From positions 3,716,501 through 3,780,500 of the forward strand of contig NZ_CP018632.1 of assembly GCF_002215215.1 (NCBI RefSeq): DNA of 64,000 nt, given 5' to 3'. Each line of letters starts with the position of its first letter. Positions within the stretch are counted from its first letter, which is position 1. The position numbers and the translations under genes are program-made. Below the pieces are notes generated by a model. That model had not been told where the DNA came from and did not search any database. It was given only the letters and a program-made list of their open reading frames with translations. Positions 43,771 to 61,660 of the stretch are shown piece by piece. Source of the DNA: Granulosicoccus antarcticus IMCC3135. Its GTDB lineage: Bacteria > Pseudomonadota > Gammaproteobacteria > Granulosicoccales > Granulosicoccaceae.

Positions 43771-44567
43771 CGCCCGACGAGCATGTTCGTGCAGCCCAAG
43801 ATCTACTCAAGGCCGAACAAACGGGCGCACAGATCGGACTGTTGACATTACGCCATCCCGAGATGGGGATGGATGATGCCTATGAGATTCAGAAAGCTAT
43901 CAGTACGGCCAAGCTGGCACAAGGTCGAAAGGTGATTGGCTGGAAAATCGGCTTGACCTCGAAGGCCATGCAATACGCGCTGAATATTGATACGCCCGAC
44001 AGCGGCATTCTGTTTGACGACATGTTGTTCAATACCGGCGATACGGTAGAGAAGGGCCGCTTCATTCAACCGCGGATAGAGGCAGAAATCGCCTTCGTCA
44101 TGAAGTCGGCACTAGGAGGCTCGGATGTGACCCGCGCCGATGTGATCGCGGCAACCGACTATGTTTCGCCGGCTATCGAAATTCTCGATACACGTATACA
44201 ACGCACCGATACTGACACTGGGCGTGCGCGCACGGTGTTCGACACCATCAGTGACAATGCCGCCAATGCCGGTATCGTCATGGGGCGAGAGAAACATGAG
44301 GTGGAAACCGTCGATCTTCGTTGGGTGGGGGTCATGGCTTTTCGCAATGGTGATATCGAGGAGACCGGCCTGGGTGCTGGTGTTCTGAACGATCCGATCG
44401 AGAGCGTGGTCTGGTTGTCACGCCGCATGGCCCAGTACGGACAGAGTATCGAACCGGGTCAGGTCATTTTGTCAGGTAGTTTCATCCGCCCTGTGGAGTG
44501 TCCCGAGAATACTCAGATCCATGCAGACTTTGGAGCCTTTGGTTTCGTGGATGTTCAGTTCGACTGA
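43767..44567 (+). CDS. hpaH: 2-oxo-hept-4-ene-1,7-dioate hydratase
   Basis: A 266-residue hydratase of the HpaH/MhpD family that adds water to 2-oxohept-4-ene-1,7-dioate (magnesium-dependent in the family). Motifs are VIGWKIGLTSKAMQYALNID, PRIEAEIAFVMKSAL (metal Glu pair) and DAFxxxS-like DFGAFGFVDVQFD at the end. The ATG overlaps the hpaG stop by four bases. Confidence 0.94.
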   Translation: MTPDEHVRAAQDLLKAEQTGAQIGLLTLRHPEMGMDDAYEIQKAISTAKLAQGRKVIGWKIGLTSKAMQYALNIDTPDSGILFDDMLFNTGDTVEKGRFIQPRIEAEIAFVMKSALGGSDVTRADVIAATDYVSPAIEILDTRIQRTDTDTGRARTVFDTISDNAANAGIVMGREKHEVETVDLRWVGVMAFRNGDIEETGLGAGVLNDPIESVVWLSRRMAQYGQSIEPGQVILSGSFIRPVECPENTQIHADFGAFGFVDVQFD

Positions 44568-44617
44568 GCCGTTCGATATCTTCCTGTTAAAAATTCATTC
44601 TGAAAATAGAGGGATCA

Positions 44618-45400
44618 ATGCCCGCACCACACAATTCGTTCAAGGCAGCGCTGCAAGAGGGAAATTTGCAAATTGGTTGTTGGCTGGGTCTGGCAGAACC
44701 GTATGTGGCAGAAATCAGTGCAAGTGCCGGTTTCGACTGGTTGTTGATCGACGCTGAACACGCACCCAATGATCTGCGCTCAATCATTCGCCACCTGCAG
44801 ATTATTGCCGCGTCTGATAGCCAGGCTGTTGTTCGTCCTCCCATTGGAGAGACCTGGATCATCAAACAATTGCTGGATGCCGGCGCCCAGACTCTGCTTA
44901 TCCCTATGGTTGACACGGCAGAACAGGCGCAGAAACTGGTCGATGCCGTCACGTACCCGCCTCATGGCGTTCGCGGCGTAGGTTCTGCTCTGGCGCGTGC
45001 ATCCAATTTCGCCGCCATTCCGGATTATCTGCAGAGCGCCGGTGATGAAATTTGCTTGCTAGTACAAGTAGAAAGCTGCAAGGGCCTGGCCGCTCTGGAT
45101 GAAATTCTTGCGGTTGAGGGCATCGATGGCGTCTTCATCGGCCCCTCTGATCTGGCCGCTGATATGGGGTTCATCGGGCAGGCTGGAGCCAGCGAGGTGA
45201 AGAAAGCCGTGCTGAGCGCCATAGGTCGTATTGTGACGGCCGGTAAAGCGGCGGGCATTCTTACATTGGATCGCGACCTGCAGTCCAGTTGCCGAGACTT
45301 GGGCGCCACATTCATTGCCACCGAGATCGACGTTACGCTCTTTGCCAGATCCATCCGGCAGGCGGCGCAGTCAGCCTCTACTCACTTGCGTCCAGCGTAA
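44618..45400 (+). CDS. hpaI: 4-hydroxy-2-oxoheptanedioate aldolase
   Basis: A 260-residue class II pyruvate aldolase that splits 4-hydroxy-2-oxoheptanedioate into pyruvate and succinate semialdehyde, the last ring-fragment step. The metal site is in FDWLLIDAEHAPND and VQVESCKGLAALDEI, and IGPSDLAADMGFIGQ is the conserved loop. It ends the hpa operon; 400 bases without a complete gene follow. hpaB/C (4-hydroxyphenylacetate 3-hydroxylase) and hpaX are not in this window. Confidence 0.95.
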   Translation: MPAPHNSFKAALQEGNLQIGCWLGLAEPYVAEISASAGFDWLLIDAEHAPNDLRSIIRHLQIIAASDSQAVVRPPIGETWIIKQLLDAGAQTLLIPMVDTAEQAQKLVDAVTYPPHGVRGVGSALARASNFAAIPDYLQSAGDEICLLVQVESCKGLAALDEILAVEGIDGVFIGPSDLAADMGFIGQAGASEVKKAVLSAIGRIVTAGKAAGILTLDRDLQSSCRDLGATFIATEIDVTLFARSIRQAAQSASTHLRPA

Positions 45401-45506
45401 TCGCACCGAGAGAATGCCGACCTGCTGCTGAATACGCTTGATTCGGTTCTGGAGGATTGTGGGCCTGCGCTCAGCTGATCAAGTACGCGGATGCAGGCCT
45501 TGGCGC

Positions 45507-45674
45507 TCAGTTGAATTCTGCTCTTGAGGACGTTGCGTTCGACACTGATTTCACCAGCTTCCTGAACCATTGATGTCGGCTTGAGTCGGTATGTCGAGCA
45601 TGCCAGGTCTGCACGATCTTGAATACACCCAATTCCACTTGATGATATTTCAGCGGCGCGGGATTTTATTGCCG
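45507..45674 (-). pseudogene. Possible LysR regulator C-terminal remnant
   Basis: A minus-strand open stretch reads KYHQVELGVFKIVQTWHARH then TDSSRHQWFRKLV, like the last helix of LysR-type effector domains, and has no start. The rest of the 45401-45798 gap shows no gene. Confidence 0.35.
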
Positions 45675-45798
45675 AGGACTACATTTGACAATGCTATATT
45701 CGGCTATGTTGAGGAATAGGATTGATACGTAGATGATAATGGTCTGGGTGGTCGTTCCTCAGTGCTATCCGGATCTTTTTTGAACAGAAAAATCAATT

Positions 45799-47052
45799 AT
45801 GCCTTCGTGCAAAAGACGTACATCTCTACTATTTGCAGCCACTGTCAGTCTGGCAACGCTGATCGGATGTGCAACGCAAAAGGGTAACCTTGCCCCCGCA
45901 GAGAGTCTTGAGCCTGCTGGCTGGCTTGATGTTGATACCTCACTGCTCGGTGATCACTACTCCGATTATGTAGCTGATGTCCGGCAGCGACTCGAATCAC
46001 ATCGCTTGCTGCATGACCCGTCTCAGGCCGAGCTGGAGATAGAGCGTGCCGCTCCTCGTGAATACCCTGCGGCGGATCACTGTGGCGCAAAGGTAGCTGG
46101 CATTGCCATTCTGGTGCACGGTTTGTCGGATACCGCATTCGCGATGCGCGATCTTGCGCAGTCACTGAGTAAGCAGTGCTACATCGCTCGCACGGCATTG
46201 CTGCCAGGCCATGGCACGCGTGCTGGTGATCTGTTGGCAGTGACCCATGAAGACTGGACCAATACCGTGCGTTACCTGACCGAGCAGGCGGCTCGCGAGC
46301 ACGATCGGGTCGTTCTGGTTGGCTACTCGCTCGGGGCAATAGCGACAATGACGGTCGCTCTGGATGAGAACAGTCCGGTTGATGCACTGCTGGCCATATC
46401 GCCTGCCTATAACATTTCGACGATGTCCTCTGCGCGCTTTGCGCCGTGGTTGTATTGGGTATACCCGTGGATCGACAAGGGCAACTCGGATGACTCGCAA
46501 CGCTATGAGTCCATGCCGACACGGGCCGTGGCCGAGTTGGTCGGTGGGTTGAAAGTAATGAACGCGTTGATTGAACAACGCAAGGGCTATGATCAGCCCT
46601 GGATGTTGATTCAGAGCCGGGACGACAGCAGTACCGTGCCTGTCGACAATCAGGCGTTTGTGCTGGAGTACGCCAGCGATCCGCGCTCACGCGTTATCAA
46701 CTTCTATTCGGATCAAAGCCCGGAGGCACCGCAACCTGATGTGCAATGGATTCCGGGGACCAACCTTGAATACCGCGTTACGGGGCTGACTCATCTGGCT
46801 GTGCATATAGCCCCTGACAATCCACATTACGGAGCCGACGGCGATTATCGAGGCTGTGGTGCTACTGATGGACGCGATCTTGGCGATGCGAAGCGGTGCA
46901 GCGATGCTGAAAAGGTCTGGTACGCCGACTGGAGCAAGTTGCCAGAAGTCGGTGCTGAACCACCGACAGCCATTTCCACATTCAACCCGGAATATGCGCA
47001 AATGGAAACGGCTATCAGTGCGTTTTTGAGCGAGCTCGATAACGGTCTTTGA
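45799..47052 (+). CDS. Alpha/beta hydrolase lipoprotein
   Basis: A 417-residue exported protein with lipobox LATLIGCATQ. The hydrolase core has IAILVHGLSDTAFAMRDLAQ (oxyanion loop), LLPGHGTRAGDL and the nucleophile elbow VLVGYSLGAIATM; a late THLAVHIAP supplies the catalytic His. The lid and C-terminal cysteines (CGATDG, RCSDAEK) are unusual. It resembles carboxylesterase/monoacylglycerol-lipase types anchored in the periplasm; the substrate is unknown. Confidence 0.87.
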   Translation: MPSCKRRTSLLFAATVSLATLIGCATQKGNLAPAESLEPAGWLDVDTSLLGDHYSDYVADVRQRLESHRLLHDPSQAELEIERAAPREYPAADHCGAKVAGIAILVHGLSDTAFAMRDLAQSLSKQCYIARTALLPGHGTRAGDLLAVTHEDWTNTVRYLTEQAAREHDRVVLVGYSLGAIATMTVALDENSPVDALLAISPAYNISTMSSARFAPWLYWVYPWIDKGNSDDSQRYESMPTRAVAELVGGLKVMNALIEQRKGYDQPWMLIQSRDDSSTVPVDNQAFVLEYASDPRSRVINFYSDQSPEAPQPDVQWIPGTNLEYRVTGLTHLAVHIAPDNPHYGADGDYRGCGATDGRDLGDAKRCSDAEKVWYADWSKLPEVGAEPPTAISTFNPEYAQMETAISAFLSELDNGL

Positions 47053-47136
47053 GTTTTACTTAGAGATACCTCGACACCTTCCTGAAACAGTACCCGACGC
47101 GATGCTGTACGCTTTGCATTTTTTCCGGCAAGACTG

Positions 47137-47970
47137 ATGAATCGATTTGATCTGGGAAATCACACAAAACTGATTTCAACTGCTTCTGCTGAATCTCAGC
47201 GCTGGTTCAATGTTGGGCTGAATTGGTGTTATGGGTTTAATCATGAGGAAGGTGTGAAATGCTTTCTCAAAGCAATGGCAGCTATGGGATGTGAAGCACG
47301 GCGTGCCGGCTGCTCGTGCTGACACCTTCGAAGCGTTGTCTGTGATTGAACGCTCTATCGCGATGAAAGAGGCGGCCGGTGAACAGCAGCATCCGGCCAT
47401 TCTGCATTTGCATATCTATGCCAGGGTGTTGCGCATGCCGCATTGAAGAACTTGTCTATCGCAGAGGCAGAACGGGTTAAGTTTCATGCGGCTGTGAAGC
47501 GTATTCCAGAGGACAGGAAATTTTTCAATAACACCGCGCAGTCTATTCTTGCGGTGGCAGAAGAGATGCTGGACGGTGAGTTGGAGTATCACAAAGGCAA
47601 CCATGAGATTGCTTTTAAGCATTTGCGTGAAAGCGTTTATCGGGATGATAACCTTGGGTACACCGAGCCATGGGCGTGGATGCACCCACCGCGTCATGCT
47701 CTGGCAGCTTTGTTGGCCGAGCAAGGGCAACACGAGGAGGCGGAAGAGGTCTATCGTACGGACCTGGGGGTGAACGGCAAGCTACAACGCTGTGCACAAC
47801 ATCCGGACAATGTATGGGCTCTGCACGGATTGGTGGAATGTCTGCGTGCCAGAGGCGACACTGAAGAGTTGCCATTTTTTGAGGCAAAACTTGTGTATGC
47901 ACTGACAAAAACGGATGTTCCCGTCACCTCATCCTGCCTGTGCAGAGCTGCAGTTTGCTGTAATTCCTGA
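47137..47970 (+). pseudogene. Tetratricopeptide repeat protein, degraded
   Basis: Three frames form one decayed gene. 47137-47280 gives MNRFDLGNHTKLISTASAES and RWFNVGLNWCYGFNHEEGVK, the conserved start of a family of about 550 residues. About 47310-47440 gives ADTFEALSVIERSIAMKEAA in another frame. 47443-47970 gives the tail: GYTEPWAWMHPPRHALAALL, YRTDLGVNGKLQRCAQHPDN and DVPVTSSCLCRAAV. Large internal parts are missing. Confidence 0.8.
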
Positions 47971-47985
47971 AGGAGAACGTATTCC

Positions 47986-48735
47986 ATGATCGCCAGTTTA
48001 GCCATGTACCAACGTCCACAACTTGTTGAAGCGCATAGTCGCCTGTGGGGATTGATCCGCAAGAATTTGCATGATGCAGGCTTGGACGCTCCAGCGCAAT
48101 TGTCGCAGGATACCGACGAAAATATTGTGTGGGAGCATCCTGAGCTCGTGCTTAGCCAGACCTGCGGCATGCCTTATCGAACGTGGTTGCATGAGAATGT
48201 GGAGCTGGTCGGTACGCCGGACTATGGCCTGATGGATTGCCCGCCCGGGTTCTACCGTAGCGCCCTGGTTGTCAGACATGACGACCCACGCCATGAGTTA
48301 CCCGAGTTTCGTAGCTCCACATTTGCCTACAACCAGAGCTTTTCTCAATCCGGTTATGCGGCGCCATTCTGGCATCTTGAACCGCACGGATTCTGGTTCG
48401 AGAATCGCTTGCACACAGAGCAGCACCTGGAGAGCGCCCGAGCGGTGGCTCAGGGGCAAGCAGATATCGCATCGCTGGATGCGGTGTCCTGGCGGCTTAT
48501 GTCAAAGTACGAGCCTTTCGCCGCCAACTTGCGTGTTCTGGAGTGGACGGCACCGACGCCAGGGTTGCCGCTGATTACGGCAAAAGGCAATGATCCTGTG
48601 GTTATTTTCACAGCCGTTGAACGGGCATTCGCTCAGTTGCAAGACGAAGACAAAGATCTGCTGGGAATCCTCGGACTGGTATCCATTCCCAAAGAGGACT
48701 ACCTGGCGTTGCAGAATCCGACACCGGGTTCGTGA
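47986..48735 (+). CDS. PhnD-like periplasmic substrate-binding domain protein
   Basis: A 249-residue protein of the phosphate/phosphonate-binding PhnD-like fold without an obvious signal peptide. Recognisable are MIASLAMYQRPQLVEAHSRL, LVLSQTCGMPYRTWLHENV, LVGTPDYGLMDCPPGFYRSA and FAYNQSFSQSGYAAPFWHLE. AEGQADIAALD-type switching is seen as GQADIASLDAVSWRL. No permease or ATPase is linked, so it may be a sensor or orphan binding domain. GGAG precedes the ATG by about ten bases. Confidence 0.85.
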   Translation: MIASLAMYQRPQLVEAHSRLWGLIRKNLHDAGLDAPAQLSQDTDENIVWEHPELVLSQTCGMPYRTWLHENVELVGTPDYGLMDCPPGFYRSALVVRHDDPRHELPEFRSSTFAYNQSFSQSGYAAPFWHLEPHGFWFENRLHTEQHLESARAVAQGQADIASLDAVSWRLMSKYEPFAANLRVLEWTAPTPGLPLITAKGNDPVVIFTAVERAFAQLQDEDKDLLGILGLVSIPKEDYLALQNPTPGS

Positions 48736-48781
48736 TTCGGGACTTTGTATCCAGCTGATCCTGGTCACTTCTCGTCATTCT

Positions 48782-49252
48782 TTAAGACTTGTTCGAACTT
48801 GCGGCCATGTGGTCCGTCATCATCTGCATCATGGATTGCATCATCTGCATGCGCTTTTCCATTATCTTGTGGTGATTGCCCATGTCACCATGCATCGGGT
48901 CCTTGTCCTGCATGTCGGGCTTGTCTTTCATGTCACCCTTGTCCATCATGTCGCCAGAGCCCATTTCACCCATCATGGTCATGCTGTTCTGCATGACCTT
49001 CTTATGCTCCGCCATCATGGCGCTTCGCTCCTCCGGTGTCCTGGCCTCCATCATCTTGTCGTGCATTGCCTGCATGACCGTCATCTGCTCGTCCATGCGA
49101 GCCAACTGCGCGTCGGAACCGTCCATTGACATCTTTTTCGTGGATGCGGCATCTGGACGTTGGGTGTCGTGCCCGACGGGCATCTGTGCACATCCGGTAA
49201 GGCCGAAAGTAGTCAGGGCGGTTGCAATTGCAACAGTACGAAGTAAATACAT
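48782..49252 (-). CDS. Methionine-rich lipoprotein of the copper island
   Basis: A 156-residue lipoprotein (lipobox FGLTGCAQ) whose C-terminal half is extremely rich in Met and Asp/Lys/His: MMGEMGSGDMMDKGDMKDKP, DPMHGDMGNHHKIMEKRMQM. Such clusters bind Cu(I) and Ag(I) in periplasmic copper-resistance proteins. It lies downstream of copA on the same strand, 140 bases away, and probably buffers copper in the periplasm. The family is not named. Confidence 0.75.
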   Translation of the reverse strand: MYLLRTVAIATALTTFGLTGCAQMPVGHDTQRPDAASTKKMSMDGSDAQLARMDEQMTVMQAMHDKMMEARTPEERSAMMAEHKKVMQNSMTMMGEMGSGDMMDKGDMKDKPDMQDKDPMHGDMGNHHKIMEKRMQMMQSMMQMMTDHMAASSNKS

Positions 49253-49392
49253 GGGGAATGCTCCAGTAGTTGACAGGAAGAGTGAGCTTGTCTGTGCGGT
49301 AAAGCATCCAGCCGCTCATTGAACAAGTTATCAGAGAGCTGGTTATTTCGGATTGATCGACATCAGTTTCCGGCGTGTTTCATCTCGGAATT

Positions 49393-51795
49393 TCAGAACT
49401 TCAGCCGCCGCAGCCGTAGGGCGTTCAGAACCACCGTTAACGATGATGCGCTCATCGCGAAGGCTGCAAACATTGGGCCGATCAGAATGCCGAGGAACGG
49501 GTAAAGAACACCGGCTGCGATCGGTACGCCCACGGCGTTGTAGATCAATGCGAAGAACAGATTTTGACGAATATTGCGCATGGTCGCATGGGACAGCTTG
49601 CGAGCTCGTACGATGCCATCAAGATCGCCCTTGACCAGCGTGAACCCGGCGCTTTCGATTGCCACATCGGCGCCTGTGCCCATCGCGATGCCGACGTCGG
49701 CCTGTGCCAGGGCAGGGGCGTCGTTGACCCCATCGCCTGCCATGGCGACTTTCTTGCCCTGTTCCTGCAACTCCCGGATGATGCGGGCCTTGTCTTCGGG
49801 CAGCACGTCGGCGCGAATCTCATCGATGCCCAGACGTTTGGCCACCGACCTGGCGGTGCGCTCATTGTCACCGGTGGCCATGATGATGCGAAACCCCAAT
49901 TCGTGCAGCGCTTTCAGGGCGGCGGGTGTTGTCTCCTTGATCGTGTCTGCTACGCTGACAAGGCCAGCGATAGCACCGTCCAGCACAATGAACATCACCG
50001 TCTCGCCCTCATCGCGCCGCGCATTGGCGGTGTCGACCAACGCGTCGTTGTCCAATCCCATGTCACGGATCAGTGCAGCATTGCCCAAGGCAACGGCTTT
50101 GCCATCCACGCGGCCCTTGACGCCCTTGCCGGTCACCGCCTCGAACTCCTCGGCCTTGGCCAACTCGACACCGCGCTCTTCGGCGCCGCGCACAATGGCT
50201 TCGGCCAGCGGGTGTTCTGAGCCGCGTTCCAGAGAGGCCGCCAGCCGCAGTACTTCGACCTCGTCATGCCCGACTTCTGGCAAAACCGCGACTAGCCTGG
50301 GCTTGCCTTCAGTCAGCGTGCCGGTCTTGTCCACGATCAGCGTATCGATCTTCTCGAATCGTTCCAGCGCTTCGGCGTTTTTTATCAGCACGCCCATCTG
50401 CGCCCCCGTGCCCGTTGCCGTCATGATCGATATGGGTGTGGCCAGACCCAGCGCACAGGGACAGGCAATGATCATTACCGCTACCGCCGAGACCAGCCCA
50501 TAGGCCATGGCCGGCGCGGGGCCCCAGATTGACCAGACGATAAACGATACGACGGCAACGGCTATGACTGCTGGCACAAACAGGCCCGCCACCTGATCAG
50601 CGTATTTCTGGATCGGCGCACGACTTCGTTGTGCGTTGGCGACCATCTGTACGATCTGGGAAAGCATGGTATCAGCCCCAATGCGGGTGGCCTCGATCAC
50701 CAGACTGCCGGTGCCATTGATCGTGGCTCCCGTGACAGGCTCGCCCGCGATTTTTTCCACCGGCATAGGTTCGCCTGAAATCATTGATTCATCCACTGAC
50801 GACCGGCCTTCGAGAACCACACCATCAACGGGCACCTTGTCGCCGGGGCGCACACGCACGTGATCGCCCAGCTGCACCTGTTCAAGCTCGATCTCTTCTT
50901 CGGTGCCGTCGGGGCGGATCACCAGCGCGGTCTTGGCGGCCATATTCAGCAGTGCCCGGATGGCCTTGCCAGTGCCCTCGCGGGCACGTAGCTCCATCAG
51001 CTGGCCCAACAGCACTAATGTCACGATCACAGCCGCGGCCTCGAAATACACACCCACCTGGCCGTTCGCGTCTCGAAAGCCTGCGGGAAATATCTGCGGT
51101 GCGACGACGGCAACGATACTGAACAGAAAGGCTGCGCCAACCCCCATCGAGATCAGGCTGAACATGTTCAGGTTCATCGTGCGGAACGACTGATAGCCGC
51201 GCACGAAGAATGGCCAACCCGACCACAGAATCACAGGGGTTGCCAGTACGAATTCCAGCCAGAGCGATGTGCGTTCGCCCAACAAGTCAATGAAGTAGGT
51301 GAAGCCCACCATCGGCCCCATGGCCAGAATCAGCAAGGGAACGGTCAGAGCCGCTCCGAGCCAGAACCGATGGGTAAAATCGACCAGTTCGGGGTTTGGG
51401 CCTTCCTCCTCCAGGCTGACGGTTTCTGGCTCCAGACCCATGCCGCAGATCGGACACGAACCGGGCCCGGGATGGTGTACTTGTGAGTGCATCGGGCAGG
51501 TATAGATCGTGCCGTTGTAGTTCTCTGGCACCGTATCGTATTCGCCTTCCTTCACACCCACGCTAGTTGCATCATGCGCAGGGGAATGACCGGAGTGGTC
51601 GTGTTGCCGGTGTTCCGCCACTTCGCCCTCAGGTACCAGGAACATGCCGCATTTTGGGCAGGATCCTTCTTCGGTACTGCGCACCTCGGGGTGCATGGAA
51701 CATGTGTAGATCGTACCGGAATACCCATCCGGCACAGTATCGAGGGATGGCTCCTCGGGGGCGGTTTTGTCGAAGTGGCCTTTGGTGACGTTCAT
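49393..51795 (-). CDS. copA: Copper-translocating P-type ATPase
   Basis: An 800-residue P1B ATPase exporting Cu(I). In place of N-terminal MxCxxC domains it has two heavy-metal-binding YHS-like motifs: [23 protein letters not shown] near residues 24-50 and [23 protein letters not shown] near 87-113. Then come six or more membrane helices, the SGEPMPVEK actuator loop, [13 protein letters not shown] (CPC), DKTGTLTEG and [20 protein letters not shown]. The start at 51795 has AAGGA upstream. A CueR-type promoter lies 86 bases before the start. Confidence 0.95.
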
Positions 51796-51852
51796 CTTAT
51801 TGTCCTTTTTTGTTGCCGACCGTGCATGGAGTGCCAATTGGTAACTGAGTTA

Positions 51853-52212
51853 TCTACCAATAATTGCGGACTCCGGTTGCATCATGGATGTTCCAGTAAC
51901 TGGAACGTCAAGGCCTTAATCAGATATTTCGAGATAATATGTAAAAATGACGATGCCAATACCGGTAATCTCGACCGACACGCTACTGTGCGCATGATCA
52001 AGGCGTGAACTGTATGATCGGGAAGCAGGGTGGGGGTTCAGACTGGAGTGTCTGACTTGCACTGATGTCTGTCTTCATCATTGATCTCCAGGAAATTGCA
52101 CTACGCAAGGTAGCGTTCTCGCAGGGCTAGTCAGCATCATTGTGTGATCCCGGCATTTGTTCCGCAGTTTGTTTGCTCTGAAGACATACTTCATAAATCC
52201 GCTAATCATAAC
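51853..52212. repeat. Collapsed duplicate of the 59508-60945 region
   Basis: Three consecutive blocks match the later region in the same order with the intervening genes deleted: 51853-51949 with 59508-59604 (CueR-type promoter), 51949-51993 with 59993-60037 (start of ccdA) and 52001-52212 with 60731-60945 (start of the small membrane gene and the tail of the next). Identity is high by eye, about 85-90 percent. It is a scar of a tandem duplication between copA and cusA. Confidence 0.85.
51881..51911 (-). promoter_or_regulatory. MerR/CueR-type promoter of copA
   Basis: On the minus strand TTGACG (51911-51906), a 19-base spacer and CATGAT (51886-51881). The spacer holds the dyad TTCCAG-TAA-CTGGAA (51891-51905). 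The overlong spacer with a central dyad is the signature of promoters untwisted by MerR-family activators such as CueR. It lies upstream of copA. No cueR gene is in the window. Confidence 0.8.
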
Positions 52213-52218
52213 TGCACT

Positions 52219-52248
52219 CAGGATTGTCTAGTGCACTAGACAATCCTG
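52219..52248. repeat. Perfect 30-bp palindrome downstream of cusA
   Basis: CAGGATTGTCTAGTG is followed immediately by its exact reverse complement with no spacer. It lies 40 bases after the cusA stop, at the end of the duplication scar. There is no U tract after it on the minus strand, so it could be a cruciform, an RNA hairpin or an operator for a dimeric regulator. Confidence 0.8.
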
Positions 52249-52287
52249 CGATCAAGCCGAGTACTCTTTAATTCGAGTGTAGGGATT

Positions 52288-55200
52288 TCATGGTGTCTCC
52301 GTTGGTTGTGGTTTGGTTAGAAGCGGTAAGCCGAGGGTGTTTCCAGGCGGCGCTGAATCCAGTACAACATCGATGTGTGTGAGAGGAAGACGTTTGATCT
52401 CACGGCGTTTCCATAGAAAATAGACCGCAGGGATCACCAACAACGCCAACACGGTCGCGCTGAGCATGCCGCCGACCATGGGGGCGGCAATGCGCTGCAT
52501 GACCTCAGAACCCGTACCGGTGCCGATCATGATCGGAACGAGGCCAGCGACAATGGTGGCGACCGTCATGATCACGGGACGTACCCGCCGGCCTGCTCCC
52601 TTCAGCACGGCGGACTTGAGCTCGTCTACCGTCGGGCGACGCGCCTGGGCCTGTGTTTCCGACACCAGCCGAACATAGGCCTGATTGAGATAGACCAGCA
52701 TGATGATCCCGATCTCCACGGCAACGCCTGCCAGGGCAATGAAGCCGACGCCCACGGCAATCGAGAAGTTGTATCCCAGGGCCATCATGAGCCAGACTCC
52801 CCCCAGCGCGGCAACGGGCAGGGTGGCCAGAATGATCAATACTTCCGTAAAGCTTCTGAAGTTCAGATAGAGCAACAGCACAATGATCACCAGCGTCAAC
52901 GGGATCACATAGCTCAGACGCTCCTGTGCCCTGAGCATGTACTCATACTGCCCGGACCACTGCACCGAATAGCCACCTGGCAGCTTCAGGTTGTCTGCCA
53001 CGGCGGCTTGAGCCGTTTTGACATAGGAGCCCAGATCCACGCCTGCAATATCCACCAGCGTCCAGCCATTGAGCCGGGCATTCTCACTTTTGATGCCCGG
53101 GGGACCCTCCTCGATACGCACACTCGCCACATTGGCCAGTGAAATCCGGTGACCGCCCGGAGTTACCAGCGGCAGCATCTCGAGTTGTTCCGGAGAATCA
53201 CGAAAACTCTGCGGATAGCGCATGTTGACCGGGTATCGTTCCAGTCCCTCAACCGTCTGGGTCACCTGCATGCCCCCTACCGCGGTTGCAATTATCTGCT
53301 GTACATCGGCAATGTTCAAGCCGTAGCGGGCGGATTTCTCACGGTCAATGTCAATCTTGATGTAGCGTCCGCCGGCGACCCGCTCACTGTAGACCGACGC
53401 GGTGCCTGGCACTTTTTCCAGAATCGTTTCCAGATCCCGACCGATGGATTCGATCACCTTCAGATCCGGCCCCGCGATCTTGATGCCCACGGGTGTCTTG
53501 ATACCGGTCGCCAGCATATCGATACGGGTCTTGATCGGCATAACCCAGGCGTTTGTCAGACCGGGTATCTGGACCAGCGAGTCGAGCTCGGCCCGCAGAC
53601 TCTCAGACGTGACTCCAGGTCGCCATTGTGATTTGGGATGGAACTGCACCACCGTTTCAATCATCGTCAAAGGTGCTGGATCGGTCGCACTCTCGGCCCG
53701 GCCCATCTTGCCGAACACCGTCTTGACCTCAGGCACGGTGCTGATCAGCTTATCGGTTTGCTGCAGGATCTCACGGGCCTTGCCAATTGAGATGCCCGGA
53801 TAGGTGGTCGGCATGTACATCAGATCGCCTTCATCCAGCGGTGGGATGAACTCGCTGCCGATATTGCGTGCCGGCAACAGGCCGATGCTGGTTATGGCCA
53901 ACGCCACGATCAGCACGATAACTGGTATCCGCAAAACGGTACGCAGCACCGGCAAGTAGAGCGCCATCAGAAGCCGGTTGATCGGGTTGGCCGATTCGTG
54001 CCGCACCTTGCCTCGGACGAAATAGCCCATCAGTATCGGTACCAGTGTGATCGCCAGCAAGGCTGAGGCGGCCATCGCATAGGTTTTGGTGAACGCCAGC
54101 GGGGAGAACATGCGTCCCTCTTGCGCTTCAAGCGTAAACACCGGCAAGAAGCTCATGGTGATGATCATCAAAGAGAAAAACAGGGCAGGGCCCACCTCAC
54201 TGGCCGCGCGGGCAACGACCTGCCAGCGGTTGTCATCCGTCAGCGGTGTCTCCTCCATGTGCTTGTGCATGTTCTCGATCATCACGATGGCTCCATCGAC
54301 CATCGCACCGATCGCGATCGCTATACCGCCCAATGACATGATGTTCGCGTTGATGCCTTGCTGATGCATGATGATGTAGGCGATGAGAATACCAACGGGC
54401 AGGGAGAATACGGCCACCAGGGCCGAGCGCACGTGGAACAGGAACACCGCACACACCAGTGCGACCACGAAGAACTCCTCGATAAGCTTCATATAGAGGT
54501 TCTCCACGGCTGAATCGATCAGCTCCGATCGGTCATAGACGGTCACGAGCTCCACGCCATCGGGCAGACCGGCTTTCAACACCTCCAGGCGCGACTTGAC
54601 CCCATCGATGACGCTGCGGGCATTTTCACCAAAGCGCATGACGATTACCCCACCGACAACTTCTCCTTCGCCATTGAGTTCGGCAATACCACGACGAATC
54701 TTCGGCCCGATATTGATCGTGGCGACATCGCGCAGCAGCAAGGGAATACCATTGGCATCCTGACCCAGCGGCACGGTTTCAAGCGCGTCTCGCCCATCCA
54801 GATACCCGGATGCCCGCACCATGTATTCGGCCTCGGCCATTTCGATCACCGAGGCACCAACCTCCTGATTCGCACGCTGTATCGCCGTCTGTACATGGCT
54901 CAACGGCATATTGTAGGCACGCAGTTTGTCAGGGTCGACGGTGACCTGGTATTGCTTCACCATGCCACCGATTGTCGCCACTTCCGAGACACCAGAAACA
55001 CTTTGCAGCTCGTACTTCAGAAACCAGTCCTGCAGGCTGCGCAGCTCGCTGAGATCATGTTGTCCGGTGCGATCGACCAGTGCGTACATATAGGCCCAAC
55101 CGACACCGGTCGCATCGGGTCCCAGCTGAGGGCGAGCGGTGTCGGGCAGGTTGGGCGTCACCTGACTCAGATATTCAAGCACCCGCGAACGTGCCCAATA

Positions 55201-55509
55201 CAGATCAGTATCATCATCGAAAATGACATACACAAACGAATCACCGAAGAACGAGTAGCCCCGCACATTCACCGCCCCGGGAACCGACAGCATTGCAGTG
55301 GTCAGGGGGTAGGTCACCTGATCTTCGACCACTTGCGGAGCCTGTCCCGGAAAGCTGGTCTTGATGATGACCTGAACGTCAGACAGGTCGGGCAGGGCAT
55401 CAATCGGTGTCTGTTTTACCGACCACAAGCCCCAGGCTACTAGCATCAGGGTCATCAGTAGAACAAAAATCCGATTGCGAATCGAGTAATTGATGATTGA
55501 TTCAATCAT
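52288..55509 (-). CDS. cusA: Copper/silver efflux RND pump CusA
   Basis: A 1073-residue heavy-metal-type RND permease with twelve predicted helices and two large periplasmic loops. The opening MIESIINYSIRNRIFVLLM and IDALPDLSDVQVIIKTSFPG are typical of CusA. The GGIAIAIGAMVDGAIVMIEN helix carries the Asp of the proton relay, and a methionine-bearing periplasmic cleft is expected. It exports Cu(I)/Ag(I) through CusC using the adaptor CusB. Its start overlaps the cusB stop by four bases. Confidence 0.95.
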   Translation of the reverse strand: MIESIINYSIRNRIFVLLMTLMLVAWGLWSVKQTPIDALPDLSDVQVIIKTSFPGQAPQVVEDQVTYPLTTAMLSVPGAVNVRGYSFFGDSFVYVIFDDDTDLYWARSRVLEYLSQVTPNLPDTARPQLGPDATGVGWAYMYALVDRTGQHDLSELRSLQDWFLKYELQSVSGVSEVATIGGMVKQYQVTVDPDKLRAYNMPLSHVQTAIQRANQEVGASVIEMAEAEYMVRASGYLDGRDALETVPLGQDANGIPLLLRDVATINIGPKIRRGIAELNGEGEVVGGVIVMRFGENARSVIDGVKSRLEVLKAGLPDGVELVTVYDRSELIDSAVENLYMKLIEEFFVVALVCAVFLFHVRSALVAVFSLPVGILIAYIIMHQQGINANIMSLGGIAIAIGAMVDGAIVMIENMHKHMEETPLTDDNRWQVVARAASEVGPALFFSLMIITMSFLPVFTLEAQEGRMFSPLAFTKTYAMAASALLAITLVPILMGYFVRGKVRHESANPINRLLMALYLPVLRTVLRIPVIVLIVALAITSIGLLPARNIGSEFIPPLDEGDLMYMPTTYPGISIGKAREILQQTDKLISTVPEVKTVFGKMGRAESATDPAPLTMIETVVQFHPKSQWRPGVTSESLRAELDSLVQIPGLTNAWVMPIKTRIDMLATGIKTPVGIKIAGPDLKVIESIGRDLETILEKVPGTASVYSERVAGGRYIKIDIDREKSARYGLNIADVQQIIATAVGGMQVTQTVEGLERYPVNMRYPQSFRDSPEQLEMLPLVTPGGHRISLANVASVRIEEGPPGIKSENARLNGWTLVDIAGVDLGSYVKTAQAAVADNLKLPGGYSVQWSGQYEYMLRAQERLSYVIPLTLVIIVLLLYLNFRSFTEVLIILATLPVAALGGVWLMMALGYNFSIAVGVGFIALAGVAVEIGIIMLVYLNQAYVRLVSETQAQARRPTVDELKSAVLKGAGRRVRPVIMTVATIVAGLVPIMIGTGTGSEVMQRIAAPMVGGMLSATVLALLVIPAVYFLWKRREIKRLPLTHIDVVLDSAPPGNTLGLPLLTKPQPTETP

Positions 55510-57053
55510 TGGAAGGCCTCGCCCGTGTCAGCGGCTTCGATGGCGTTGATCTGGTAGTCGCCGGCGTCGGTCTCGAACACGCGAAAGCGTATGGAGTCGC
55601 CATCCTTCAGCGGCTCTATATCCACCGCGTCGTCGAGTGAAAACTTCATCGACATGGCTGGCCATTCCCATTCGGGAATGGGTTCATGCGAGATTGATGC
55701 GATACCTTCTTTTTCATTGATCGCCTCAAGCACGCCGATCGCCCAGACCGCCTCGGAGGTTTTTTCCGGCCCAGACCGGTTGCCCGACAGCGACTCGTCA
55801 AGCTCGCTCATGCGCATGAAGTCGGAAGCGATGCTCGATTCCGAATCGATCAGAAATTGGGCGGAGATAACCACCTCGTCACCCTCTTCAAGTCCTTCCA
55901 GAATCTGTACCTGCCCACGCGAGCGTCGGCCTATGGTCACGGCCACGGACTTGAAGTGACCTTCGCCGGTAGCCAGTACCACCCGTTCCATGGTTCCGGT
56001 CCGAATGAGCGCCTCACGCGCAACGAGCAGAGCCGGTTCAGGGGCATCGGCGGCGATGCTCAGACGTGTGAACATATTCGGCAGCAAGGCACCATCCGGG
56101 TTCTCGAGTACGATGCGCAGCTTGGCGGTGCGCGTGACGCTGTTCAGCACAGGGTAGATATAATCAACCTGACCTTGCCAGCGTCGACCAGGAACAGCAT
56201 CGGTCTGAATCTCTACCGCCGCCCCCACACGAAGCTTGGCCAGCTGGCTTTCGAAAACCTCGCCTTCAATCCAGACAGGATCCATCGAGGCGATGCGCAG
56301 CAACCTTTGTCCAGGGGTCACGTAGGCGCCCTGACCGACCGACAATGAATCAACAACTCCTGCCTGCGGTGCGTAGACGCGGATCTGCTGGATAACCGTG
56401 CGGTTCTGGCGAATGCGATCGATCGTGCCGCTGCTGACACCCAGATTCGCAAGCTTGTCTTGCGAGGCATCGATCAGCACGGTATCGCCGGAATCCAGAG
56501 CAATCAGATATTCCTCCTGTGCCGAGATCAGCTCCGGAGAATAGATGTCGTACAGCCGGCCAAACTTTTCAATCGGATCGCCGTCACTTCTGACGTGCAG
56601 GCGGCGCAACCACCCGGCAACCCGCGCATGAACCTCCTGGAGCTGGCGCTCATCGAACCCGACATAACCGACCGTCTCGATGGCATCGGCCAGAATGGCA
56701 TGCTCGACTTTGGCGGTGCGCACGCCCAGATTATTGATCACCGCAGGAGATATCTCTACCGTACCGGCCGGTAGCGCTTCACCAGACTGCTTGAAGACAG
56801 GTACCAGATCCATCCCCATCGGCGATTTGCCGGGCTGATCTCGCCGATAGTTTGGATCCATGGGAGCGACCCAGTACAGTGGCTCGTTACTATCAGACTC
56901 TTCACCCGAGGCCTCGGTAGCCGAGGCCGGGCTGGACAGCTTGGTCAGAATTTGCGATGAGAATTCAGGCCCCCAGGACATACCCAGGCCAATGCTCAGC
57001 CCGGCAACAATGACCAGGGCAACGAGGCCGAAAATCCGGAACAGACCTTTCAT
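55506..57053 (-). CDS. cusB: CusB periplasmic adaptor with C-terminal CusF domain
   Basis: A 515-residue membrane-fusion protein with an N-terminal anchor (LFRIFGLVALVIVAGLSIGL). A metal-binding segment follows (YWVAPMDPNYRRDQPGKSPM), then the adaptor barrel and hairpin domains (VEISPAVINNLGVRTAKVEH, RIRQNRTVIQQIRVYAPQAG, PGQRLLRIASMDPVWIEGEV). The last 90 or so residues are a CusF-like copper chaperone domain with HEPIPEWEWPAMSMKFSLDD, having the Trp and Met residues that coordinate Cu(I). Usually CusF is separate; here it is fused. It overlaps cusA and cusC genes by four bases. Confidence 0.94.
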   Translation of the reverse strand: MKGLFRIFGLVALVIVAGLSIGLGMSWGPEFSSQILTKLSSPASATEASGEESDSNEPLYWVAPMDPNYRRDQPGKSPMGMDLVPVFKQSGEALPAGTVEISPAVINNLGVRTAKVEHAILADAIETVGYVGFDERQLQEVHARVAGWLRRLHVRSDGDPIEKFGRLYDIYSPELISAQEEYLIALDSGDTVLIDASQDKLANLGVSSGTIDRIRQNRTVIQQIRVYAPQAGVVDSLSVGQGAYVTPGQRLLRIASMDPVWIEGEVFESQLAKLRVGAAVEIQTDAVPGRRWQGQVDYIYPVLNSVTRTAKLRIVLENPDGALLPNMFTRLSIAADAPEPALLVAREALIRTGTMERVVLATGEGHFKSVAVTIGRRSRGQVQILEGLEEGDEVVISAQFLIDSESSIASDFMRMSELDESLSGNRSGPEKTSEAVWAIGVLEAINEKEGIASISHEPIPEWEWPAMSMKFSLDDAVDIEPLKDGDSIRFRVFETDAGDYQINAIEAADTGEAFQ

Positions 57054-58402
57054 GAACGCTCTCCAGAAGCAGGTGTAGCGCTTGAGACATACTCGATCGC
57101 TGACTTTGTTTTCATGAGTTCGGCATCGAGTGCCAGGGTCTCAAGCTCGGCATTCAGCCTATCGATCAGTACCAATTGCACTTCAACAAAGCCCGCCTCG
57201 CCACTGGCAAAGGCGCGGCGCGTGGCCTCGGCTTGCTGATGGTACTCAGGCAGGAGCTCATCGCGTAACAGGGTTTGCCTGGCTTCCAGACGGATCGCCT
57301 GTGCCTGCAGCTGGCGATAATCGCGAGACAGTCGATCACGTATGAGTTCGGCCTTTTTGTCTGCCTGATCCACCTTGGCGGTGGCGGCTGACCGGCGTGC
57401 TGTATTGGCACCACCGCGCAACGAGGCAAGATCCATGGTGAAACCCAAGGAGAGAAAATCAGCGCGCTCAACATCGTTCGAGGGATCCTCACGATAACCG
57501 TAGCTCACACTGAGCCCCCGGCTGCCTTTGCCCAGCTCGGTGGCCAGGCGCTGTTCCGCCTCAGCAGCCTTACGTTCAGCGTCAGCCAGCACGAAGGAGG
57601 GATGGGTCGAGGGGTCGAATGTTACCGATGAGCTCATCGGGTCTGAGTTGTATTGCGTGAAGTCAAGTCGCTCAATCTCAGCCGCGCTCAGCCATTCGCC
57701 GAACAGTTCACGGCTGTTGTCGACGAGCATCGAAAATCGCTCGATACGTTCATCGACTCGGGTCAATGCCGCCCGGGCGCTAAGCACCTCCCGTTGGCGT
57801 GCCTGACGAAGGCCGGCCCCGTAGTTGGCGCGCGTGATATCCAATGCCTGCTCGAACACGGTACGATTCGATTGCAAGGCTGCCACGGAGGCCTGTGCCA
57901 TCCATCCTTCTGACCAGGCGGTCTGCAACTGCTGGCGCAACAGGGCCCTGCGCAGTTCGCTCTGGATTACGGCGGCTTGGGCAAGATGCTGCTGAGCGGT
58001 CGATTGCCAGTGGCGCGAATCGCCTGGCGGAAACATCTGGCTCAGGCTTATCTGCAGTTGCGTCATGGGCTCCTGATCGATCGCGAAGGTATCCAGGGGA
58101 AAGTTCGCGGCCGACAATTTAAGCGTAGGCGGTGGCAGCGCGGCCGATACCCGTGCCGTGTCACGCAGCATCGATTCACGATCCATGCTTTGACCAATTT
58201 CCAGATCTCTCTCGACGACGAGCTTGATCACATTGTCGAGCGACAGGGTATCAGCGTGCACAGCAGGCAGGGGTAAGCATACGGCTACGATCAGTGTTCG
58301 AGCCAGATGGCGATACAACAAAGGAACAAGAAATGCGTTTTTCGTAAGCACAGGCAGTAATAATCTCAATGAATGGAGGATGAAAGGCGAGCGACTGATC
58401 AA
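57050..58402 (-). CDS. cusC: CusC-type outer-membrane efflux protein (TolC family)
   Basis: A 450-residue outer-membrane channel of the RND system. After a signal peptide ending near PLPAVHADT, the mature protein is alpha-helical with the TolC repeats (LDNVIKLVVERDLEIGQSMD, RAALTRVDERIERFSMLVDN, ASGEAGFVEVQLVLIDRLNA). The start is uncertain: TTG at 58402 has AAGGGA upstream, while a GTG at 58351 gives a shorter leader. It is the first gene of the cusCBA operon. Confidence 0.9.
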   Translation of the reverse strand: MISRSPFILHSLRLLLPVLTKNAFLVPLLYRHLARTLIVAVCLPLPAVHADTLSLDNVIKLVVERDLEIGQSMDRESMLRDTARVSAALPPPTLKLSAANFPLDTFAIDQEPMTQLQISLSQMFPPGDSRHWQSTAQQHLAQAAVIQSELRRALLRQQLQTAWSEGWMAQASVAALQSNRTVFEQALDITRANYGAGLRQARQREVLSARAALTRVDERIERFSMLVDNSRELFGEWLSAAEIERLDFTQYNSDPMSSSVTFDPSTHPSFVLADAERKAAEAEQRLATELGKGSRGLSVSYGYREDPSNDVERADFLSLGFTMDLASLRGGANTARRSAATAKVDQADKKAELIRDRLSRDYRQLQAQAIRLEARQTLLRDELLPEYHQQAEATRRAFASGEAGFVEVQLVLIDRLNAELETLALDAELMKTKSAIEYVSSATPASGERS

Positions 58403-58429
58403 TGTTGTGATCCCTTGCTGTGTGAGATC

Positions 58430-58564
58430 TCATGCATTTCTGATAACGAATGCCAGGCGGTCAGGCGTTGCCATCAATAAAGCAGTCGCACCGGATCCCA
58501 CGAGAAATCCACGACGTGACATAAGCGCTCGTTGAGGTAGAGAGCTAAAGGGCTGACAGGACAT
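58430..58564 (-). pseudogene. Multicopper oxidase remnant (Tat signal only)
   Basis: A 44-codon frame MSCQPFSSLPQRALMSRRGF then LVGSGATALLMATPD reproduces the first 35 or so residues of the multicopper oxidase at 61661-63115 (RALMSRREFLVGSGATALL) and then diverges into a stop. The flanking DNA 58480-58660 also matches 63040-63225. It is the 5' stump of a duplicated oxidase gene cut off before cusC. Confidence 0.88.
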
Positions 58565-58708
58565 ATCGATCTGGTCAGGGTCAAATCAGGGGAAGACCAT
58601 CCGCGCACAGGTAGTCGATCAGCGATCCACGAGAAGCGGAGTCGGCAGATCAACAATCAAGCGAAGGGAGGAGGTGCGAGGTGCGCGAGTTACGCGACAG
58701 CAAGCACG

Positions 58709-59134
58709 TCAGACGATAGGAGGGCGGAACAACAAGGTAACCACGGGGGAGACGAATCCCTTGTTATCAACGACTGAGGCGATGTTGGCACCGCTCGACA
58801 AATCTCGGAACAAGGGGCTCTCCAACACCGCCACCTGAGGCGCAGGGCAACTTGAGACACAAGGCAGTGAGCAATCCTGAGAGTCACTACAGTCGACTTC
58901 AAGACAACAATCACCGGATTCTGAGCCATGTTTCTCAAAACCGACCGTGAGAAGATCCGAACCCACGCTGCTGACTTGCGCAGCCGGCAGGGAGAACTGA
59001 CTCACCGGTGATTGCAGTAACAGGGAGCTGGCAACGATCCAGAAGCCCAACAATGCCACACACAGGCGCACGGCATTCGTCCGGAGACCCGAAGGTTCCG
59101 GCGAGCGGTACGACTGAGGAGGGTTCATTGTCAT
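58709..59134 (-). CDS. Cysteine-rich exported protein, copy 1
   Basis: A 141-residue protein with one hydrophobic N-terminal segment (RLCVALLGFWIVASSLLLQS) that can be a signal or anchor. The middle holds a cysteine cluster: SGDCCLEVDCSDSQDCSLPC and VSSCPAPQVAVLE, seven cysteines in about 25 residues, likely metal-binding or disulfide-rich. The C-terminus ends LLFRPPIV. It is about 75 percent identical by eye to the gene at 63258. It lies upstream of the truncated oxidase and cusC, so it may be co-transcribed with the cus operon. I do not recognise a family. Confidence 0.75.
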   Translation of the reverse strand: MTMNPPQSYRSPEPSGLRTNAVRLCVALLGFWIVASSLLLQSPVSQFSLPAAQVSSVGSDLLTVGFEKHGSESGDCCLEVDCSDSQDCSLPCVSSCPAPQVAVLESPLFRDLSSGANIASVVDNKGFVSPVVTLLFRPPIV

Positions 59135-59208
59135 GCGTTGAATTTTAATCGTTTTAGTGAGCTGTCACACTCACGCTGTTTGTTGCCGGGTGGGTCAGTA
59201 GTCACGCT

Positions 59209-59259
59209 TGGTCATATGACCTGCCATGTACTGGCAAAGTTCCCGACAGCTTGATTATA
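59209..59259 (-). promoter_or_regulatory. Conserved upstream region of Cys-rich gene copy 1
   Basis: TATAAT (59259-59254 on the minus strand), the block AAAGTTCCCGA (59236-59246 on the plus strand) and the dyad GGTCATATGACC (about 59213-59224) are all kept in the second copy upstream of 63683 (TATGAT, AAAGTTCCCGA, GGTTATGTGACC), more strongly than neighbouring non-coding sequence. They mark a shared promoter; the regulator is unknown. Confidence 0.5.
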
Positions 59260-59390
59260 CGCTCTCTCCAACCGATTGAGATTAGATTGAACATGAGTTG
59301 TAGTATTTTGATGCAAATGAATCAGCTATCCGGTTCGACTGTAATAATGTTATCTCAGTCGTGTTCGTTAAAAACAAGGCCGACACGTTG

Positions 59391-59516
59391 TTACTTATTC
59401 GGCTGTCGGGTCATGCGCAGATAGGGCTTGAGTTCGTTCCAACCGGCTGGAAAAATTTTTTCAGCTTCTTCGTTGGATAATGCTGGCGATACGATGACGT
59501 CGTCGTTGTCTACCAG
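59391..59516 (-). pseudogene. Peroxiredoxin C-terminal fragment
   Basis: A minus-strand 41-codon tail reads DDVIVSPALSNEEAEKIFPA then GWNELKPYLRMTRQPNK, matching the C-terminal end of 1-Cys peroxiredoxins (PSxSxEEAKKxFP..PYLRxTPQP). It has no start and abuts the CueR-type promoter repeat, so it was fused there by the same rearrangement. Confidence 0.6.
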
Positions 59517-59536
59517 TCATTGCAGACTCCGGTTGT

Positions 59537-59567
59537 ATCATGGGTATTCCAGTGGCTGGAACGTCAA
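59537..59567 (-). promoter_or_regulatory. Second MerR/CueR-type promoter copy
   Basis: TTGACG (59567-59562), a 19-base spacer holding TTCCAG-TGG-CTGGAA and CATGAT (59542-59537). It is the paralogue of the copA promoter at 51881. Here it faces only the peroxiredoxin fragment and, 400 bases on, the Cys-rich gene, so it may now drive the latter and cusCBA. Confidence 0.75.
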
Positions 59568-59631
59568 GGCTTGATCAGATATTTCGAGATAATTTGTAAA
59601 AATGAATATTGAGCCTTCCCTCATTCAGAGA

Positions 59632-60024
59632 TCAATGGCACTTGGTCGGGTAGTTGTGCGTAGAAAGAGCCGTAATCAGAAACGGCACGCCCAGTCCGGC
59701 TGAATAGATCGATAACAACCAGATAATGGCCCCACCGACCAGACTGAGCTCATTGCGCCAGCTCAACAGCACACGCCCCAGTACACCAACTCCGGCACCG
59801 AGTACGACGAAGCTGTCGAAAAGCCCAGCACAAAAACACAGGCTCAGACCCCCCGCACGCAGCCGGGCCCTGAATTCGGCCTGCTGTTCGGGTGCCTGAT
59901 CCGTCTGGCCAGCGATAAACGAGACGTAGCCTGGAACCAGCGGCAGCACGCAGGGGGAAAGAAAGGAGATGGCACCCGCCAGAAAGGCGGCGACGATGCC
60001 AATACCAGCAATCTCGGTCGACAC
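59632..60024 (-). pseudogene. ccdA: CcdA cytochrome c biogenesis protein, internally deleted
   Basis: The 130-codon frame begins GTG and reads GIGIVAAFLAGAISFLSPCV then LPLVPGYVSFIAGQ, the first half of CcdA with its SPC cysteine. After LVGGAIIW it jumps in frame to LLSIYSAGLGVPFLITALST, the last conserved block, losing about 70 residues that include the second redox cysteine (TPCIGP region). The C-terminal helix is also lost. It is unlikely to transfer electrons. Confidence 0.88.
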
Positions 60025-60025
60025 G

Positions 60026-60544
60026 CTACTTTGCGCGTGGCTGTCGAAATGGACGCAGCGCCCAGGCGAATGCCAGCCCTGGAATCACGATCCACTGCAA
60101 CAAGGGAGACAGCCCGGCATCAATCACCGGCACGATGGGCATCAGCTCCGAATAGGCCCACGCCTCACGCACGACAATATTAAGCCACTCGCTGAACACG
60201 GTATAGCCGACGCCAATCACCATCGTGAACCCAACCACACGATAGACGGCAGAACGCGTCAGTGGCCATCCTGCGCCAAACATCAGCAACGACAACATCA
60301 GGGCGCTCATGGCGATCAGGACATCACCGCCGGTGCAATGGACGGCGGCAAACACGATCTCCCCTGTAGTACCGGTATTCCAGAGGGTGTACAGCGGCAT
60401 GTGCGCAAACTCCCAGACCAGATTACCTCCTGCGATGACTGAAAAATAGCGTCGTAACGTCGACACGAATGACGCACCCATTGGCACGGTATCGATGGGA
60501 GTACGGTGCGAGGAGAGGGTCGCAATATCCTGTGGTTGATTCAC
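60026..60544 (-). CDS. Copper-island integral membrane protein, unknown
   Basis: A 172-residue protein with about five hydrophobic segments (VFAAVHCTGGDVLIAMSALM, LSLLMFGAGWPLTR, YRVVGFTMVIGVGYTVFSEW, LLQWIVIPGLAFAWAL). His and Cys in AAVHCTGGD and the acidic EWLNIVVREAW could bind metal. A GTG at 60544 overlaps the upstream stop (GTGA), which selects this start over the longer frame. Related proteins occur beside multicopper oxidases and CcdA; no function is known. Confidence 0.72.
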   Translation of the reverse strand: MNQPQDIATLSSHRTPIDTVPMGASFVSTLRRYFSVIAGGNLVWEFAHMPLYTLWNTGTTGEIVFAAVHCTGGDVLIAMSALMLSLLMFGAGWPLTRSAVYRVVGFTMVIGVGYTVFSEWLNIVVREAWAYSELMPIVPVIDAGLSPLLQWIVIPGLAFAWALRPFRQPRAK

Positions 60545-60813: not shown

Positions 60814-60858
60814 TGATCTCCAAAAAATTGTACTACGCAAGGCAGCGTTCCCACAGGG

Positions 60859-61041: not shown

Positions 61042-61158
61042 CAGATATATTCCTGTTATTGGCATTACATGCCATGAGGTTCAAGGTCCCGTCGCAACGC
61101 GACGGAGATTGCATCAAGCTATTCAAGATCGTCACCCACTGTCGCTTGCTGATCATGC

Positions 61159-61605: not shown

Positions 61606-61660
61606 GATGTTTCCTGTGGTTTGTGCTTGAGAGATACGAGGTGCCAGACAAAAGATTTCA

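Follow-up and report, generated by a model that had tools for sequence, protein, structure and literature searches.

Remnants of a duplicated copper-resistance cluster between copA and cusA in Granulosicoccus antarcticus

In Granulosicoccus antarcticus IMCC3135, the copper genes copA and cusA follow each other on the minus strand, yet non-coding DNA separates the listed start of copA (51837) from the stop codon of cusA (52288). What is this DNA, and how did it come to lie there? Positions are those of the window, the whole 64,000-nucleotide stretch G000:C1:3716501–3780500 that was analysed; all genes placed below are on the minus strand, and upstream and downstream follow that strand. An earlier note on this DNA had described the gap as a tandem duplicate of a nearby region, collapsed through the removal of its genes. 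Our analysis leads us to a related reading, which we hold with good confidence: a copper-resistance cluster was very probably present in two tandem copies, of which one (copy A) occupies 59505–63813 and the other (copy B), decayed by internal deletions, has left its 3' half as a fossil at 51849–52193, the 3' halves having been refreshed.

Gene ends between copA and cusA

Re-alignment recovered three blocks in the order of their counterparts in copy A, as the earlier note had claimed. They lie on the same strand as these counterparts, with identities of 87.5–90.2% that are far above chance. Block 1 (51849–51950), the putative CueR-type promoter region before copA, matches 59505–59605 at 89.1% (90 of 101 aligned bases identical). 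Block 2 (51949–51996), which consists of the last codons of p187 and the first codons of ccdA, matches 59992–60039 at 87.5% (42/48), while block 3 (52000–52193), comprising the 3' end of p68, an intergenic gap and the first ~39 codons of p99 in a broken frame, matches 60730–60926 at 90.2% (175/194). The local alignment scores of blocks 1, 2 and 3 (142, 66 and 281) stand against best random scores of 25, 25 and 28 in 300 random 2-kb stretches of window positions 1–44000, which rules out chance similarity. Good identity ends at 52193 and 60926; the outer limits given at first (52212 and 60945) overshoot by 19 bp.

The DNA gone from the eroded copy amounts to 386 bp (59606–59991) and 690 bp (60040–60729), and the total of 1,076 bp agrees with the 'about 1.1 kb' originally reported. 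The in-place gene ends allow the deletions to be mapped nearly to the base: blocks 1 and 2 have two bases in common at their junction (51949–51950), and three bases (51997–51999) lie between the aligned blocks 2 and 3. In a tblastn search p99 of copy B appears as two separate pieces, residues 1–30 and 25–39. Most likely, nothing in 51949–52193 is coding today.

A dispersed repeat or regulatory element set in both gaps, instead of an eroded cluster, might also produce matching blocks. Block 1, a putative promoter, could move alone, and a palindrome lies beside block 3. However, when 51849–52212 was used as a query against the whole 7.78-Mb single-contig genome (E up to 0.001), the only matches were its own site and the three copy A blocks; blocks 2 and 3 consist of the ends of genes, arranged as in the operon, further gene stubs lie on both sides of cusCBA, and no Rfam family was found at the gathering threshold in 44000–64000. 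We regard such an element as scarcely credible here. A repeat family or mobile element was rejected on the same two genome sites and lack of an Rfam match, and on the lack of a plasmid match to 51800–52320 at E 1e-5. An assembly artefact was rejected on the difference of about 10% between the copies and on the single contig of the genome.

The fossil at 51849–52193 and a DUF411 stub at 52276–52291 fill most of the gap, so the proposal that remnants account for the non-coding DNA between copA and cusA stands. The remainder (52194–52275), which the fossil does not cover, holds a perfect, self-matching palindrome at 52219–52248, between cusA and block 3, whose 24-bp core is unique in the genome at up to 3 mismatches. 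RNA folding of 52190–52290 yields a strong hairpin (z −4.4); the palindrome was rejected as a terminator on account of the missing T run and the absence of a scan call.

Two copies and the cluster forms of relatives

Gene remnants are found at the other end of cusCBA as well. A match absent from the earlier note, 58462–59263 to 63013–63813 at 77%, comprises a copL-like gene, its upstream region and 34 codons of a multicopper oxidase (MCO). Because this copL/MCO remnant lies upstream and a DUF411 start lies directly after cusA, cusCBA is flanked on both sides by stubs of the same cluster. In copy B the copL-like gene (copL-B, 58709–59134) has an intact reading frame with 77% amino acid identity to that of copy A; against NF033807 (CopL family regulatory protein) it scores 17.9 bits, below the curated cut-off of 40, and is called 'copL-like' only. 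It is followed by the 34-codon 5' stub of the MCO (58463–58564; tblastn, 68% identity, E 4e-6) and by the genes present in copy B only: cusC (57050–58402; PF02321), cusB with a C-terminal CusF domain (55506–57053; PF16576, PF11604) and cusA (52288–55509; TIGR00914, 1261 bits). The DUF411 stub consists of an ATG, which overlaps the cusA stop as ATGA, and ~4 codons. In its alignment with the start of DUF411 in relative G012 all 15 paired bases are identical, with a single gap of 1 base, a score that 31 of 5000 shuffles reach without the ATG; for a stretch of this length (~16 bp) the match to copy A's own DUF411 is not above chance (1138/5000 shuffles as good), the figure for relative G024 being 353/5000. 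Downstream of the three blocks and the retained promoter lies copA, a P-type ATPase gene (49393–51837; TIGR01511, 586 bits) that is listed from a TTG, with an ATG 14 codons further in.

Copy A contains copL-A (63258–63683; 82% amino acid identity to G012), an MCO (61661–63115; TIGR01480, 217.6 bits, under the curated cut-off of 479), a DUF411 protein (61159–61605; PF04214), intact genes for the small membrane proteins p68 (60859–61065) and p99 (60541–60840), the membrane protein p187 (60026–60589; copy A only), ccdA (59632–60024) and its own block 1 (59505–59605). The copL-like gene is thus retained in both copies; MCO, DUF411, p68, p99 and p187 are retained in copy A and are stubs in copy B; cusCBA and copA belong to copy B only, copy A being without both; and ccdA is broken in copy A and a stub in copy B. 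The gene sets of the two copies are largely complementary, each behind its own copL-like gene. The early view of an eroded second copy is borne out, the blocks being gene ends, and the proposed unit of promoter, ccdA and membrane protein is indeed contained in what was duplicated. The real unit is much larger, including also copL, MCO and DUF411, with cusCBA within the eroded copy. The statement that the copper island arose by duplication is too strong, as copA and cusCBA are unduplicated inside the window.

Nor is the other copy intact. Aligned to its G012 homolog, ccdA of copy A is internally deleted and truncated, with 130 codons against 262 in the G012 open frame: ~70 middle codons including the GWTPC segment are deleted, the frame is shifted locally and the C-terminal end is missing, while SPCVLP is kept. 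We take these two conserved cysteine motifs to be expected in a full CcdA/DsbD domain (PF02683); copy A ccdA covers positions 5–85 of 219 in that family, and the full membrane domain is absent. A search of the genome at E 0.001 gave no further match to G012 ccdA. Copies A and B both lack four dsb-type genes of G012 (dsbE, tlpA, dsbD-N and dsbG, labels assigned by inspection of the sequences), and G012 dsbG has one weak genome match only (25%) at the same threshold. For p187 and p99, searches of Pfam and NCBIfam gave no family at E 0.01. At 33 of 37 p187 loci the fetched stretch includes at least one further gene of the copper cluster; p187 is an unnamed copper-linked membrane protein family.

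The uncollapsed form for which the earlier note had suggested comparing relatives is present in an uncultured Granulosicoccus (G012:C31) as a single cluster, copL-MCO-cusCBA-DUF411-dsbE-tlpA-dsbD-dsbG-p68-p99-p187-ccdA. Genes and order are as in the window, and DUF411 directly follows cusA, starting 14 nt past its stop, whereas the ATG of the copy B stub overlaps that stop. The relative also differs in having one cluster only, with a full ccdA and the dsb-type genes, and without an adjoining copA in the 38 kb fetched. On this model, copy B would have carried cusCBA between MCO and DUF411, as in G012, and internal deletions would have removed those of its genes that are present in copy A, leaving as ends the 34 MCO codons, the DUF411 start, p68 3'/p99 5' and p187 3'/ccdA 5'.

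The nearest relatives that carry the cluster are Granulosicoccus assemblies. The search covered 57 genomes, many of which are drafts, and gave no relative with two full copies. DNA of the blocks was matched in 4 of the 57, our own included; at the same threshold, G014 matches block 3 and a piece of the promoter, G024 a piece of block 2 only and G012 a piece of the promoter only. The p187 gene occurs in 5/57 genomes and copL-like genes in 4/27 genus genomes, our own included in both counts. At E 1e-200, cusA was found in 8 of 39 genomes (24 genus genomes included), within the genus only in G000 and G012; at E 1e-100, one of four genomes had it, adding G024. In G014 the cluster lies on a 6.8-kb contig (C25) that starts inside tlpA and extends to ccdA. 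In G024:C35 the run copL-MCO-DUF411-dsbE-tlpA-p99-p187-ccdA is uninterrupted by cus genes. There, cusCBA lies past ccdA at a distance of about 17 kb, and a second copL is accompanied by pieces of p68, p99 and MCO.

Decay is seen in two of these relatives. The MCO behind cusCBA in G024 (C35:47749–48291; L084 15749–16291) is collapsed in frame, residues 1–142 being joined to 446–484, and G019 (C4:56565–57852; L058 10565–11852) has a decayed cluster made up of copL and fragments of MCO, p68, p187 and ccdA. Erosion to gene ends therefore recurs in the genus, where, to judge from such remnants, spare copper genes are repeatedly cut to their ends. The genome of the window has a second copA at G000:C1:4075044–4077485 (L059 7044–9485), with 95% protein and 92% DNA identity to the first and a relative of p187 close by; the exact CueR-type motif described below is absent from the 20 kb fetched around it.

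Two ends of different age

The earlier note had proposed to date the blocks by their divergence. The blocks can be dated in this way, but the two ends of the duplicate differ in age, and one duplication is insufficient. Over blocks 1–3, copies A and B differ at 36 of 343 bases (10.5%); over the copL-side non-coding parts and the MCO stub they differ at 82 of 367 (22.3%; Fisher p 2e-5 against the blocks). Within block 3, a ~90-bp deletion is common to A and B and is not found in G012 or G014, and quartet sites group A with B 10 times, against 1 and 1 for the other pairings. The copL side gives another order. With G024 as outgroup, 32 sites group A with G012, 10 group A with B and 10 group B with G012; with G019 as outgroup the numbers are 32, 14 and 12. 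Synonymous distances between the copL genes (141 codons) are 0.65 for A–B, 0.37 for A–G012 and 0.50 for B–G012. The copL–MCO gap is 94.2% identical between A and G012 and 81.4% between A and B, while the copL upstream region alone (78.6% for A–G012, 78.2% for A–B) does not favour A with G012. Judged from these sites, the 3' halves of A and B are young sisters that split after G012 branched off, and the 5' halves split before A and G012 did. Two ages in one apparent duplicate caution against inferring the age of a cluster from a single flank.

The simplest history would be that the whole cluster was duplicated in tandem once, after the G012 split, and that reciprocal deletion followed; all remnants keep the same order and strand, and the 3' blocks clearly postdate that split. 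It would require that copL-B only looks old through fast evolution. Identities to the outgroup sequence G024_1 are, however, about equal (A 68.1, B 67.9, G012 68.6%), and copL-B is for this reason not taken to be fast-evolving; nor is B lower than A in identity to G019 (A 63.1, B 64.8, G012 64.9%), and the 32 sites common to A and G012 outnumber those for A and B. We consider this history improbable. The copL order and the block order conflict, and a single duplication is therefore insufficient; as far as the sequences allow us to infer, an added event is needed for the 3' halves, which would have been refreshed by gene conversion or by a second, smaller duplication.

How cusCBA came to lie in one copy bears on a further alternative. 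Outside the genus, 13 of 34 loci (L019, L021–L028, L030, L031, L034 and L045) have DUF411 close behind MCO in the same direction, and so does G024; same-strand MCO-cusCBA-DUF411 occurs at none of the 34, which are a subset of the 37 p187 loci, and is seen only in G012. The cus genes therefore probably joined the cluster separately, going by gene order. The MCO-DUF411 spacer of copy A resembles that of G024 (0/1000 shuffles as good) and also the DUF411 leader of G012 (5/1000); minus its last 22 nt it resembles neither above chance (433/1000 and 980/1000). A cusC remnant was sought in this spacer and rejected, the one 9-base match being equalled in 167/1000 shuffles (45/1000 for a shorter stretch). 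Copy A may never have held cusCBA, and if so, 'complementary loss' would cover MCO, DUF411, p68, p99 and p187 only.

The gene orders and the G024-like spacer of copy A speak for an alternative in which copy B came in horizontally as a cus cluster of G012 type and recombined with a cus-less cluster A already in place; crossover or conversion would then have produced the young 3' blocks, and the redundant genes would have decayed. The placement of copL-B outside the grouping of copL-A with G012 (100% ultrafast bootstrap) also favours such an acquisition. On the other hand, the synonymous distances between B and G012 for cusA (0.46) and cusB (0.40) fall within the range between copy A and G012 (p187 0.31, copL 0.37, MCO 0.50, DUF411 0.50, p99 0.73), as expected without transfer; the pairs p187 A–G014 and cusC B–G012 are left out of these distances. 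A non-systematic look at the borders recognised no mobile element. Acquisition is a possibility to be kept in mind, albeit a doubtful one, and we retain a decayed tandem copy with refreshed 3' halves as the preferred reading.

Promoters and comparison with known systems

The exact motif CTTGACNTTCCAGNNACTGGAA, a −35 box and dyad like those of the MerR/CueR family, lies at 51891–51912 on the minus strand, 54 bp from the listed (TTG) start of copA. It occurs twice in the window, the other site being 59547–59568 in copy A, and never in 100 shuffles; the same motif is found just upstream of copA in G012:C9 and G014:C56. A 19-bp spacer separates the −35 box from CATGAT as −10, both read by eye; 19 bp is described as the usual spacer for the family (PMC3431237). 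The −35 box, dyad, spacing by eye and position upstream of copA are those of a CueR-type promoter. Like the E. coli CueR-type copA promoter (site TTGACCTTCCCCTTGCTGGAAGGTTTA, PMC9004249), the motif lies upstream of copA and combines a TTGAC −35 with a dyad behind it whose halves are of TTCC and GGAA type. The half-sites in Granulosicoccus are TTCCAG/CTGGAA. The motif bears out the promoter that the earlier note had placed in the module: block 1 of copy B is most likely the copA promoter, of CueR type, and would have persisted in that role. A consensus promoter scan gave 0 sites in each of two regions, where about 1 was expected.

Block 1 of copy A now stands 413 nt upstream of copL-B, in sense orientation, and may drive copL-B-cusCBA. 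The stretch from its motif to copL-B gave no minus-strand site that looks like a terminator; a consensus scan returned 3 terminator-like sites in 58400–59700 (1.2 expected) and 0 in 51800–52320. Between the two copies lies a 41-codon C-terminal remnant (59394–59516, minus strand), 47% identical to part of a 220-codon open frame at G000:C1:4848913 and presumably peroxiredoxin-like, a name given from its residue pattern. It adjoins the copy A promoter and is followed by copL-B, and no matching stretch is found upstream of copL-A. One could go further and see duplication-degeneration-complementation with promoter capture at the scale of an operon, with genes split between tandem copies and the copA promoter at the end of copy A now serving copL-B-cusCBA, so that one copper unit would have become two under separate control; we think this unlikely. 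If the leftover promoter does drive the cus genes, copy decay would have yielded new regulation.

In tandem duplication-random loss, non-coding remnants are left where genes were lost. TDRL is the name used for this process in animal mitochondrial genomes (PMC7194472), where, as here, tandem copies arise and one copy of each redundant gene is lost. The copper locus shares with it adjacent copies in the same order and strand, lost genes that are kept in the other copy with remnants in place (MCO, DUF411, p68, p99 and p187), and an uncollapsed form in a relative. It departs from a single event in which both ends have diverged equally, the ends differing in age by the divergences given above; furthermore, it is a bacterial copper cluster, and copL is kept in both copies.

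No paper on this Granulosicoccus copper locus was found among the open-licence papers listed, judged from titles and the beginnings of abstracts. As an example of duplication and subsequent decay the locus is clear but ordinary. It also shows legibly how a bacterial resistance cluster is rebuilt, through copying, conversion, deletion of redundant parts and retention of promoters. Tandem duplication followed by deletion of redundant genes is a known process, and what is new is this instance. Among bacteria, duplication of the magnetosome mamAB operon followed by differential loss of paralogues has been described (PMC6819731), likewise an operon duplication with loss of different paralogues. In the strain reported there, a distance of 172 kb lies between the copies, their order is reversed, and many genes are still duplicated, whereas the copper clusters described here are adjacent and direct, and one of them consists mostly of stubs around cusCBA.
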